64,000 bases of DNA from Pseudomonadota bacterium (lineage in GTDB: Bacteria; Pseudomonadota; Gammaproteobacteria; Burkholderiales; Burkholderiaceae_C): the NCBI GenBank assembly GCA_029779845.1, contig JAKOZT010000134.1:40448-104447 (forward strand). The letters are read 5' to 3'. The notes beneath the pieces are model-generated. The model was given only the letters and a program-made list of their open reading frames with translations, did not search any database and had not been told where the DNA came from. Made by a program: the position numbers and the translations under genes. Below are positions 2,707-12,081 of this stretch, in pieces (within the stretch, counting starts at the first letter, position 1; every line of letters starts with the position of its first letter).

Positions 2707-5700
2707 TCATCCACATTGCCCCACGTACCCGCAGGCCGTGCAGAAATCGCAGCCGTCCTTGTGGATCACCGTCGGGTTGCCGCACTCCGGGCACACCGAG
2801 CCGGCCTGCAAGGGCGGCGTGGTGACGGCGCTGGCGCCGGCCTTGGGCGTCTCCAGCACGCCCATGTCGCGCAGCGGGAAGCCCTGCTCGTCGAGCACGC
2901 CCAGCATCGCGTAGCGGTGGATGATCAGCCGCGCCAGATACGCCACGGTCGACGGCCACACCTGCTGGCGGCGCTCGCCGTGCGGCAGGCCCGGCACGAA
3001 AGCCATGAAGTGGCCGAGCGGCTCGGCGTAGTTCAGCAGCTTGCGCAGCTTCATGCCGATCCAGGCCGGGTCGATGACGCGCATGTCGAGCGAGAGGATG
3101 CGCGCCAGCCCGTCCATCGCGCGCGGGTAGTTGCCGGAGAAGCCCACCGCGCAGGGGCGCGTCACCGTGCCGCCGGAACCGCTGTCCGGGCCGGGCAGCG
3201 TGACTTCCTTGAGCGTCAGCGTGAAGTTTTCGCCGGTGGCGGGGTTGTCGACATCCACCGACCAGGCCAGCGTGCCCGAGGGCCCGGTGCGCGGCTCGTC
3301 GCGGCTGAACATCGCGTCGATCACCGGCGTGGGCGCCTTGCTTCCCAGGCGCGGCAGCGCCTTGAGCTGCTCGCAGCGCCAGCGCACCACCGCCGCGGTG
3401 GCCGCCACCACACCGGGGAACAGCCGCTTCTCGCCGTGCGGCGGGAAGGCCATCTCGAACGCGCGCTCCTCGGCCACCGTCGCCAGCGCGTCGAGCTTCA
3501 GTTGCAGCCAGGCCGGGTCGTTGGCGCGCAAGTCCATCGACAGCGTCTTGGCCATCGCGCCCAGGCCGCGCGGCTGCTCGGCGCCGTTCACCCACACCTC
3601 AAAGGGCTGGGGTGAGCCGCCGCCTTCCGGCGCGAGTTCGCCGACGAAAAGGGCGAAGCTGCCGAACGGGTGGTTGATCATGTAGGTCCACGCCGGGTTG
3701 CCGCCGGGCAGTTCGGGGCGGCCCGGCCAGCGCAGCGAGGACAGCACCGGCGCCGGCAGGCGGTCGAGCGCGAGGCGGCGGTTCTTGTCGTCGATCTGCA
3801 AGGGCGCGGCGGCGGTCGGCGTGACGCTCAGCACCGAGCCCAGCACCGCGTTGGGCCGGTAGGTCGCGAGGCCCTTCAGGCCCGACTGCCAGGCTTCCAG
3901 GTAGAGGTGCTGGAAGTCCTCGTACGGGTAATCGGCCGGCACGTTGACGGTCTTGCTGATCGCGGTGTCGATGCACGGCGCGACTGCGGCCACCATCGCC
4001 TCGTGCGCCTTGGCGCTCATCTCCAGCGCGGTGACGAAGGCCTCGGTCAGCGGCGCCTTCTCGCCCTTCAGATGGCGGTACAGGCGCCAGGCGTGGTCCT
4101 CGACCGCGTACTCCTTGAAGCCGCCGTCGGGCATGCGCTTCTTGCGCGTGTAGGTCCAGCTGAAGGCCGGCTCGATGCCGTTGCTGGCGTTGTCGGCGAA
4201 GGCCAGGCTGATGGTGCCGGTGGGCGCGATCGACAGCAGGTGCGAGTTGCGCAGGCCGTGGGCGCGGATGCGGTCCTTCAGCGGCTGCGGCAGGCGCGAG
4301 GCGAAGGTGCTGCCGCTCAAATACAGGTCGGCATTGAAGAGCGGGAACGCGCCGCGCTCGCGCGCCAGGTCGCTGGACGCCTCGTAGGCCGCGTCGCGCA
4401 TCACCTCGCTGATGCGGCGCGCCATCGCGCGCGCTTCCGGCGTGTCGTAGCGCAGGTTCAGCATCACCAGCGCATCGCCCAGCCCGGTGAAGCCCAGGCC
4501 GATGCGGCGCTTGTTGCGCGCCTCCTGCTGCTGCTGCGGCAGCGGCCAGACGGTGACGTCGAGCACGTTGTCGAGCATGCGCGTCGCGACCCTGGCGACC
4601 TTGACGAAGGCCGCGTCGTCGAACGAGGCGTGGGGCTCGAAGGGATCGCGCACGAAGCGCGTCAGGTCGATGGAGCCGAGGCAGCAGCAGCCGTAGGGCG
4701 GGAGCGGTTGCTCGGCGCACTGTCCGGTAACCAGGCCGTTGAAGATCACCGTGTTGTGATCGGCCTGCGTCGTGTCGTAGACCGGCTGGCGACCGATCGG
4801 CTCGATGGCCGCAATACGCGCCGTGAAGCGCTGATGCTTGTACAAGGCCTTTCCGGCGAGCCATTCCTCGTACTTCGTACGCTTGGCCGGCAACAGGAAC
4901 CCGACTTCGCGCATGAAGGCATCGCGCGATTCACCGTCGATGATCAACTCGTGCAGATCTTGGCAGGCGTACTCGCGCAAGCCGCCGCGCCCGTCCGGGA
5001 GCGGTCGCGCGCCCGCGGCACGTCGCCGATGGATGCGCGCGAAGACACCGAAGTTGGCGAGCAGCACCTGCACGTCCTGCAACAAGGGTCGATGCACGGA
5101 GCTGAGCCGGATCGAGCAGGTCTGCCGCGAAGACGACACGTTGACGGTTCCGTCGGTCTGGAACAGCGCCTGCAAATAGGCCCGGACGCATGCTTCGCTG
5201 CCGCGCCAGACGACTTCGGGCACGCGCAGCTTCGTCTCGCGCGTGAAGCCGAGCGCGACCAGCGCGCGCGCCAGCAGCACCGAGCGGAGAGAGACCTGAT
5301 TGCGGGCCGGAACCGCCACCGGGGCCACGGTGTAGTTCCGCGGCCTCTCCGCCAGCCCGGCGATCAGCAGGTTGATCGCCGCAGCGGCCGTGTCCGCCAG
5401 CGCACGCTCCTCGTTCCACAAGGTGAGGACCGCCGCCTCCTGCCCTCGGCCCCGGTTCGTGAAGTGGCCATCGCCGGTGATCAGCCCGAGCAGCAGGCCC
5501 AGTTGCGCGCTGCCCTGGTCGCCGAATTGGCCCTTCGCGCACTGCACCCAGAGTTCGTCGCCCGCCCGCAGATCGGCGAGCCGCAGCTTCCCGCGCGCCG
5601 TGTAGAACTCGTGCCACGCGGTCGCCTCGATCTCGTAACCCTCGGCCGTCGACACGCGGAACACCTCCGCATCCGCGGACGTCATGAAGGCGGGCACGGC

Positions 5701-6759
5701 ATCACGGACTTCGGTGCCGCGATCCGACATGCCGAGCGCGCGCCGGTCGACCGTCACCTGCAACGGCGCTCCGGCCCGATACAGCTCGCCGATCGGCACG
5801 AGACCATGTTGCGTGGCGAGCCGCGTCCCTGCCGTCACGCACGGGTTGGTGCTGGCGATCGTCTCGCAGTAGCTCAGGTTGTTGTCGCGATTGATGTGAT
5901 CCAGGAACAGCACGCCCGGCTCGGCGTGGTCGTAGGTCGAGCGCATGATCTGTTCCCACAGGTCGCGCGCGCGGATCTTGCGATAGACCCACAGCCCGTG
6001 ACCGTGCGCATCGGCCTTCTGGTAGGCGCCCGCGGCCTTCTGCGCGGCGCCGGGCTCGGCGCGGTGCACCAGCTCGAAATCGGCGTCGGCCTGCACCGCC
6101 TCCATGAAGGCGTCGGTCACGCCCACCGAGATGTTGAAGTTCTTCAGGTCGCCGCCGTCCTTGGCGTGGATGAATTCCTCCACGTCGGGGTGGTCGCAGC
6201 GCAGCACGCCCATCTGCGCGCCGCGCCGCGCGCCGGCGCTCTCCACCGTCTCGCAGCTGCGGTCGAACACGCGCATGTAGCTCACCGGACCGGAGGCGCT
6301 GCTCTGCGTGCTGCCGACCCACGCGCCGCGCGGGCGGATGCGGCTGAAGTCGTAGCCGACGCCGCCGCCGCGGCGCATCGTCTCGGCGGCTTCGGTCAGC
6401 GCGGTGTAGATGCCGGGGTGGCCTTCATCGTCGTGCGCGATCGAGTCGCCCACCGGCTGCACGAAGCAGTTGATCAGCGTGGCCGACAGCTCGGTGCCGG
6501 CGGCCGACTGGATGCGCCCGGCCGGCACGAAGCCGGCATCGAGCGCGGCGGCGAAGCGCTCTTCCCACTGCTTGCGCTGCTCGGGCGGCTCGGCCTGCGC
6601 GAGCGCGCGCGCCACGCGCGCATGCACCGCGGCGATCGAGCGCTCGCCGCCCTTGGCGTACTTCTCGATCAGCACCTCTTCGCTGATCGGCTGGGCGGGC
6701 AGGTTGTGCGCGGTGGGGGGAACGGCGGCGGCGTCGGGGCTCTTGCGGGCTTCTTGCAT
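2707..6759 (-). CDS. nrdJ: Adenosylcobalamin-dependent (class II) ribonucleotide reductase, interrupted by an intein
   Basis: The gene encodes 1350 residues, of which residues 307-680 are an intein; the spliced enzyme would have 976. It reduces ribonucleotides to deoxyribonucleotides with a cobalamin-derived thiyl radical, with or without oxygen. Host motifs are TLINCFVQP (N-terminal redox cysteine), the active site [12 protein letters not shown] split by the intein, and [12 protein letters not shown]. The C-terminal third has a TSCPD-like region and a zinc ribbon, CPECG followed by [11 protein letters not shown]. The start ATG has GGAG about ten bases upstream. No cobalamin riboswitch is visible in the 150 bases before it. 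The next gene upstream is a chemoreceptor on the same strand. Confidence 0.95.
4720..5841 (-). mobile_element. Intein with LAGLIDADG homing endonuclease inside NrdJ (374 residues)
   Basis: Removing the segment restores [18 protein letters not shown], the unbroken class II reductase active site. It begins [20 protein letters not shown] (splicing block A), has [11 protein letters not shown] with the block B threonine and histidine, and ends [20 protein letters not shown] before the +1 cysteine. The centre carries two LAGLIDADG-like helices, [11 protein letters not shown] and [11 protein letters not shown], so an endonuclease is present. The last two residues are Gly-Gln rather than the usual His-Asn. 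The +1 residue is the catalytic radical cysteine, so unspliced protein should be inactive. Confidence 0.93.
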
Positions 6760-10242: not shown

Positions 10243-11478
10243 TCAGGCCGGCTGCAGCGCCTCGGCGCGCGTCAGCAGCCGCTCCATCAGCTCGCGCACG
10301 CTCTTGATCTGCTCGCCGAAGGGCAGCGCGCCGGCGCCGCGGAAGAACAGGCCCTTCTTCAGGTCGCCACGCAGCGCGGCGGCGAGCTGGTTGTCGATGC
10401 AGAACTGGCCCCAGCCCTTCAGCCCGTCGCGCAGCCCGCACTGCGCCAGGCAGTCGAAGGCCTTGGTGCAGCGCGTCTTGACGTGCGTGACGGCCTGCAG
10501 CTTGTGCTCGATCTTCAGGTAGGCGCGCAGCCAGGGCGTGCCCACCGCGCGCGCGGGCAGGCCGGCGACGCTGGTGAACTCGACCATGTCCTCCTCCTTC
10601 GCGCCGGCCAGCACCTGCTTGAAGGCGTTGCTGGCGTCGCTCTCGGTGGTGACGGCGAAGGCCGAACCGAGCTGCACCGCGGCCGCGCCGAGCGACTGCA
10701 GCCGCGCGATGTCCTCGAAGCTGCGGATGCCGCCGGCGGCGATCAGCGGAATGTCGCGCTCGATGCCGGCGCTGCGGAGGAACTCGCGCGACGCCGGGAT
10801 CACGTTCTCGAAATCGAAGCGCGAGTCGTTGACGTCGGCGATCTTCGCCGCGCCGAGGTGGCCGCCGGCCAGGCGCGGATGCTCGATGACGATGGCGTCG
10901 GGCAGGCGCTTCTTGCGCTCCCACTTCTTGACGATCAGCTGCACGCCGCGCGCGTCCGACAGGATGGGCACCAGCAGCGCATCGGGGTGCTCGGCGGCGA
11001 GCTCGGGCAGGTCCAGCGGCAGGCCGGCGCCGACCACGACGGCGTCGATGCCTGCCTCCAGCGCGCGCTTCACCGACGCGGCGTACTCGGCCACCGCGCG
11101 CATCACGTTGATCGCCACCAGCCCGCGGCCCTGCGACAGCCGGCGCGCGGCGACGATCTCGCGCTCGATCGCTTCGAGGTTGGCGGCGTCGATCCGCGCC
11201 TTGGTGTCGGCGTCCATGCCGGGGCGCGAGGCCAGGCCTTGCGTGCGCTCCATCAGGTCGGGGTGATGGCGGCGCAGGTCCACCGACGAGATCGTGCCCA
11301 CGCCGCCGAGCGCGGCCACGCTGCCGGCCAGCTTGTGCGCCGACACGCCCACGCCCATGCCGCCCTGCACCACCGGCAGCAGCGCGCGGCCGCGCAGGCG
11401 CAGCGCGGCCAGGCCGCTGCGCTCGAAATGCGACCGCATGCGCGGGTCGATGGCGTCGGCGTCGGTCTTCAAGAGCAT
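10243..11478 (-). CDS. Nitronate monooxygenase / FMN-dependent NAD(P)H oxidoreductase
   Basis: The start is the ATG at 11478 (MLLKTDADAID) because GGAGGA lies about nine bases before it. The 411-residue TIM barrel contains VVQGGMGVGVSAHKLAGSVA, the AGGHLG loop carrying the histidine that is catalytic in nitronate monooxygenases, and IPLIAAGGIRSFEDIARL for FMN phosphate. These enzymes oxidise toxic nitronates such as propionate-3-nitronate. The C-terminus has four cysteines in the pattern C-x5-C-x3-C-x12-C, which is unlike the short classical enzymes and could hold a metal cluster. It is followed by nnrS, so a role in handling nitrogen oxides is inferred. Confidence 0.88.
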   Translation of the reverse strand: MLLKTDADAIDPRMRSHFERSGLAALRLRGRALLPVVQGGMGVGVSAHKLAGSVAALGGVGTISSVDLRRHHPDLMERTQGLASRPGMDADTKARIDAANLEAIEREIVAARRLSQGRGLVAINVMRAVAEYAASVKRALEAGIDAVVVGAGLPLDLPELAAEHPDALLVPILSDARGVQLIVKKWERKKRLPDAIVIEHPRLAGGHLGAAKIADVNDSRFDFENVIPASREFLRSAGIERDIPLIAAGGIRSFEDIARLQSLGAAAVQLGSAFAVTTESDASNAFKQVLAGAKEEDMVEFTSVAGLPARAVGTPWLRAYLKIEHKLQAVTHVKTRCTKAFDCLAQCGLRDGLKGWGQFCIDNQLAAALRGDLKKGLFFRGAGALPFGEQIKSVRELMERLLTRAEALQPA

Positions 11479-11502
11479 GGGCACGAATCCTCCGAGGCTG
11501 CG

Positions 11503-11544
11503 ACTGTCGGGGTGAAGAGGGCAACTCAGGTTGACAGTCATCAA
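11503..11544 (-). promoter_or_regulatory. FNR/DNR-type promoter of the nitronate monooxygenase-nnrS operon
   Basis: TTGACAGTCATCAA at 11531-11544 matches the FNR consensus TTGAT-N4-ATCAA in 9 of 10 fixed positions. If the start site is 41.5 bases from its centre, the -10 box falls on GACAGT (11508-11503) and the mRNA begins near 11496, leaving an 18-base leader with GGAGGA. The same spacing is found before napD. The box also lies about 31 bases from the mobB start, so it could affect that gene too. Confidence 0.6.
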
Positions 11545-11568
11545 GCACGGCTCACGCACAATGGCGCG

Positions 11569-12081
11569 ATGAACGTCTTCGGCATCGCCGGCCACTCCGG
11601 CATGGGCAAGACCACGCTGCTGGAGCGGCTCGTGCCGCTGCTGACCGCGCGCGGCCTGGTGATCTCGCTCGTCAAGCACAGCCACAAGGCGATCGAGGTC
11701 GACCGCCCCGGCAAGGACTCGTACCGCCTGCGCGAAGCGGGCTGCCAGGAGGTGCTGCTGCTCGGCGAGAGCCGCTGGGCGCTGATGCACGAACTGCGCG
11801 GCGCGCAGGAGCCGCCGCTGCCCTACCTGCTCGGCCGCCTTCAGCACTGCGACCTGGTGCTGATCGAGGGCTTCAAGTCGGGCGATTTCCCGAAGCTCGA
11901 AATCTGGCGCCCGTCGCTGGGCCGCGAGATGCTGTGGCCGAACTGGCCGGGCATCGTCGGCATCGCCTCCGATGCGCCGCGGCCCGAGGGCGCGGCCGCC
12001 GGCCTGCCGTGGCTGGACCTGCACGACGCCGGCGCGCTGGCCGACTTCGTGCTGGCCCACGCGCAGGTGCGCTCAGGCTGA
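11569..12081 (+). CDS. mobB: Molybdopterin-guanine dinucleotide biosynthesis protein B
   Basis: The 170-residue protein starts MNVFGIAGHSGMGKTTLLER with a clear Walker A loop and continues with VKHSHKAIEVDRPGKDSYRLREAG and the family motif LVLIEGFKSGDFPKLEIWR. MobB is a GTP-binding partner of MobA in attaching GMP to the molybdenum cofactor, the form NapA needs. It lies tail to tail with napC, two bases apart, which fits its job. The ORF track buries it in a 532-residue antisense extension. The ATG follows CACAAT by 6 bases, suggesting a very short or absent leader. Confidence 0.92.
   Translation: MNVFGIAGHSGMGKTTLLERLVPLLTARGLVISLVKHSHKAIEVDRPGKDSYRLREAGCQEVLLLGESRWALMHELRGAQEPPLPYLLGRLQHCDLVLIEGFKSGDFPKLEIWRPSLGREMLWPNWPGIVGIASDAPRPEGAAAGLPWLDLHDAGALADFVLAHAQVRSG

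Follow-up and report, generated by a model that had tools for sequence, protein, structure and literature searches.

An FNR-type box ahead of a ufaA/fabX-like gene and nnrS in a bacterium of the Burkholderiales: a candidate class II promoter for unsaturated fatty acid synthesis at low oxygen

In a 64,000-nucleotide stretch of DNA from a bacterium of the Burkholderiales (hereafter the window), an FNR/DNR-type box lies between mobB and a divergent gene encoding a protein of the nitronate monooxygenase (NMO) superfamily, which raises the question of which gene this box serves and what the encoded enzyme does. A preliminary description had placed the box in class II position before a nitronate monooxygenase gene and nnrS, and had thereby tied a nitronate-oxidising enzyme and NnrS to control by oxygen or nitric oxide. 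The present analysis makes it likely that the box is part of a class II promoter of the FNR type that precedes a ufaA-nnrS operon, which would provide unsaturated fatty acids during low-oxygen growth.

At low oxygen, or in response to NO via a DNR-like regulator, a dimer of the FNR/CRP family would bind at -41.5 and recruit RNA polymerase to the weak -10 element GACAGT, with transcription starting near 11496. The first gene product would be a UfaA/FabX-type acyl-ACP dehydrogenase/isomerase with FMN and a [4Fe-4S] cluster, supplying unsaturated fatty acids under conditions in which oxygen-dependent desaturases are unable to function; the genome has no FabA.

Promoter geometry at the locus and in related genomes

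The features of the locus are collected in Table 1; the box, the GACAGT hexamer and the GGAGGA sequence have exactly the geometry that had been claimed for them. The minus-strand reading TTGATGACTGTCAA scores 9/10 against TTGAT-N4-ATCAA, and TTGAYNNNNRTCAA has a single match in the window, at the box itself, whereas dinucleotide-shuffled sequence contains 0.02 matches on average. The ufaA/fabX-like gene has an alternative start, GTG at 11484, and is probably co-transcribed with nnrS as a two-gene operon.

Table 1. Annotated and predicted features of the locus, with the second box of the window
Feature	Position	Strand	Remarks
FNR/DNR-type box TTGACAGTCATCAA	11531-11544		minus-strand reading TTGATGACTGTCAA; centre 11537.5, predicted at -41.5
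Candidate -10 element GACAGT	11508-11503	-	22 bp past the box; conserved A (-11) and T (-7)
Predicted transcription start	11496	-	from class II geometry with the box centre at 11537.5
Shine-Dalgarno sequence GGAGGA	11493-11488	-	9 nt ahead of the ATG at 11478
ufaA/fabX-like gene, 411 aa	10243-11478	-	Pfam NMO superfamily; ATG at 11478
nnrS, 394 aa	9050-10234	-	PF05940, 131 bits; 8 bp beyond ufaA
mobB	11569-12081	+	divergent; PF03205/TIGR00176; box centre 31.5 bp from the mobB ATG
Second FNR-type box TTGATGGTGCTCAA	17959-17972	-	22 bp, then CACAGT; before the nap operon

Taken by itself, GACAGT is a weak -10 element. It agrees with TATAAT at three of six positions, its first position being G in this genome, and a plain sigma-70 scan found no promoter at the box/GACAGT site. 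It is accepted as the -10 element because the register of box, 22 bp and xAxxxT is kept in relatives. For comparison, 121 genomes of the family were searched for the homologous gene, each genus being represented, with few exceptions, by a single genome, and the 30 best loci were examined. Of these, 25 have a box of at least 9/10 within 300 bp upstream, compared with 9 of 293 control windows (3%) from the same loci, and 24 of the 30 carry xAxxxT in the exact class II register. When the 30 loci are aligned on the box, only the box and a TAnnnT at +29.5 to +34.5 from its centre stand out, which are positions -12 to -7 if the site is centred at -41.5, while identity in the flanks and the spacer is no higher than background (the box and the A and T of the -10 element were selection criteria in this alignment). 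A second set of 78 loci from named genomes, whose taxa partly overlap with the first, contains the box in 47 cases (54 of 1809 control windows) and the box plus class II -10 element in 43 (5 of 1809 control windows); about 40% of this set has no 9/10 box within 300 bp. The class II position before the gene and nnrS, with a predicted start around 11496, is thus upheld by the conserved register in both sets.

A comparable promoter in a related bacterial group is that of cld in Ideonella dechloratans (PMC7349173), a class II FNR promoter with a 9/10 box. Its -10 element, GAAGAT, is likewise weak and has A at -11 and T at -7, with the transcription start at +41.5 (PMC7349173). The Ideonella promoter drives chlorite dismutase and was tested with a reporter (PMC7349173), whereas the one described here is predicted from sequence.

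Regulon and acting regulator

The regulon was examined by pattern searches of the genome. TTGAYNNNNRTCAA has 14 matches there, compared with 7 for the reversed control. Most of the 14 are located at gene starts or in sequence that is not clearly coding, among them those at fnr/hemN, ccoN, a second nap operon, a DNR-like regulator gene, usp and hemA. The composite of box plus -10 element, with at most one mismatch, has 29 matches compared with 5 for the reversed pattern. Four are perfect and lie ahead of the ufaA-like gene, usp (universal stress protein), fnr and ccoN, while those with one mismatch include the nap operon of the window, the second napEDA operon, the DNR-like gene, hemA and hemerythrin-like genes. 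Judged from its box and hexamer (Table 1), the predicted promoter of the window's nap operon is of the same class II design as that of ufaA. The second periplasmic nitrate reductase operon, napE-napD-napA (L012, G000:C145), carries a perfect box as well, TTGACCGTGATCAA.

The genome encodes a classical Fnr with the Cys cluster (PRK11161 subfamily match of 245 bits, cut-off 228) and further Fnr-like proteins. A less likely but possible reading is that the site mainly serves an NO sensor of the DNR/NnrR type, or some FNR-like regulator other than the oxygen-sensing FNR, and that it may also tune mobB. Candidates are a CRP/FNR protein without the N-terminal Cys cluster, whose gene adjoins a siroheme-type gene and itself has a perfect box (L001), and another Fnr-like protein encoded at L016; such paralogues have the box in common, and FNR and DNR/NnrR sites are indistinguishable by sequence. 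Against this stands the presence of fnr and ccoN, classical FNR targets, among the four perfect composite matches. The homologous gene of Neisseria gonorrhoeae is anaerobically induced (PMC3032703), which alone does not separate the two types of regulator.

The first gene product and its probable function

The 411-aa protein matches the Pfam family NMO (PF03060) at 3.4e-34, but its best match in the PDB is FabX of Helicobacter pylori (7e1q; 177 bits, 35% identity), compared with 49 bits for the best true NMO (6bka), and the top five foldseek hits are all FabX entries. FabX (PDB 7E1Q, PMC8626469) and the 411-aa protein share an FMN-binding TIM barrel, the catalytic His, four Cys residues and a positive helix for ACP. 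In H. pylori FabX, C300, C304, C308 and C320 are the [4Fe-4S] ligands, H182 is used, and O2 is the electron acceptor; the cluster cysteines are said to be absent from other characterised members of the NMO family (PMC8626469).

The corresponding residues of the 411-aa protein, the putative cluster ligands Cys337, Cys343, Cys347 and Cys360 and the catalytic His207, are invariant among 30 homologues, as are the FMN-binding residues N124, E199 and Q269. The first two Cys are two residues further apart than in H. pylori FabX, and the position corresponding to T243 is Ser in this protein and Thr in 29 of the 30 homologues. The positive, putatively ACP-docking helix is conserved, the charge being kept at R177, K184, K185 and R188. 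The protein differs from FabX, which needs O2, in that the ACP contact T130 and the tunnel residue Y277 are both replaced by Leu. The AlphaFold model has a usable barrel and low confidence at residues 329-359, the cysteine loop. By these sequence features, the protein falls into the FabX/UfaA branch of the NMO superfamily, and the label nitronate monooxygenase is probably wrong. The [4Fe-4S] cysteines and the conserved ACP-docking helix point to unsaturated fatty acid synthesis.

The same evidence bears on the proposal that the promoter is as described but serves a true nitronate monooxygenase whose role is to detoxify nitro compounds arising during denitrification. The Pfam match, the TIM-barrel fold common to NMOs, as seen in the fold search, and the genomic neighbours nap and nnrS are consistent with it. 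It nevertheless appears quite improbable in view of the bit scores, the first rank of FabX in the fold search, the retention of all four cysteines and the mutual exclusion of the gene and FabA; moreover, nitronate oxidation consumes O2, which would be odd for an anaerobically induced gene, as pointed out in PMC3032703. The earlier assignment of a nitronate-oxidising enzyme is therefore not sustained. Of the proposed control by oxygen or nitric oxide, the FNR-type promoter is strongly backed by comparative genomics, but its target is most likely membrane lipid synthesis.

The UfaA/FabX assignment has a precedent in N. gonorrhoeae, where the FabX homologue NGO1024 (UfaA) is reported to be indispensable for making unsaturated fatty acids anaerobically (PMC11300592); the source is Isabella and Clark 2011 (PMID 21895795), as cited in PMC11300592 and PMC4549310. 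A Ralstonia homologue shares 55% identity with gonococcal UfaA (PMC4549310). Gonococcal UfaA is also a betaproteobacterial FabX-related protein, anaerobically induced, from an organism without FabA; in contrast to the promoter proposed here, its regulation is tabulated as MtrR, and the cited part of PMC3032703 claims no FNR box. In a study of RegAB redox control in Burkholderia, a figure legend mentions a gene annotated in the same way (PMC8191878).

Among the 121 genomes, the ufaA-like gene occurs in 35 and FabA, above the curated cut-off, in 21, and none contains both (Fisher p 4e-4, with genomes counted irrespective of phylogeny). NnrS, a marker of denitrification, is encoded in 31 of the 35 genomes with the ufaA-like gene compared with 30 of the 86 without it, and either UfaA or FabA is present in 47 of 61 NnrS genomes compared with 9 of 60 others (both counted irrespective of phylogeny). 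Fatty acid desaturases are nearly universal and also present in the genome studied here, in which FabA was not found. This pattern fits an oxygen-independent backup for the desaturase. A more general proposal, to which we give about even chances, is that FNR-activated UfaA constitutes the general oxygen-independent route to unsaturated fatty acids in the desaturase-dependent, FabA-less Burkholderiales, that it was acquired or kept together with denitrification, and that its electrons go to an acceptor tied to anaerobic respiration instead of to O2.

In many Burkholderiales, genes that are annotated as nitronate monooxygenase and lie next to denitrification genes probably serve oxygen-independent lipid synthesis. 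Such a relabelling would explain how bacteria relying on O2-requiring desaturases keep a fluid membrane during nitrate respiration. The question of the anaerobic electron acceptor of UfaA becomes testable in non-pathogenic denitrifiers, and a candidate FNR-dependent promoter is supplied that is ready to test.

The genome also encodes a second NMO-family protein of 422 aa (L146, G000:C142:31074-31964), which is 39% identical and has a different C-terminal part; no box of at least 9/10 was found around its gene (G000:C142:31074). Similar paralogues are present in about ten other genera.

Neighbouring genes

The sequence TTGACA (11531-11536, plus strand) within the box is a perfect -35 element, and with CACAAT at 11557-11562 as a possible -10 element it could be read as part of a mobB promoter in which the palindrome is incidental, but this is most improbable given the 20-bp spacing, the lack of a sigma-70 promoter in the scan, the occurrence of mobB next to the ufaA-like gene in 1 of 107 loci, and the same-genus locus L031, which keeps the box and an identical GACAGT with mobB more than 1 kb away. 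Because, among the 107 loci, mobB adjoins the gene in this genome alone, the box is assigned to the minus-strand gene, and mobB as its target is rejected on grounds of synteny. CACAAT is placed such that transcription would start at the A of the mobB ATG, and a leaderless mobB mRNA is possible.

In relatives, NnrS is the commonest neighbour family of the ufaA-like gene, further neighbours being ribonucleotide reductase, carbonic anhydrase, PpiC and nitrate reductase gamma. The window itself encodes, at 2707-6759, a ribonucleotide reductase large subunit with an intein-like insert containing a LAGLIDADG_3 domain (PF14528, residues 524-620); six neighbour proteins of ufaA in relatives belong to the same ribonucleotide reductase family.
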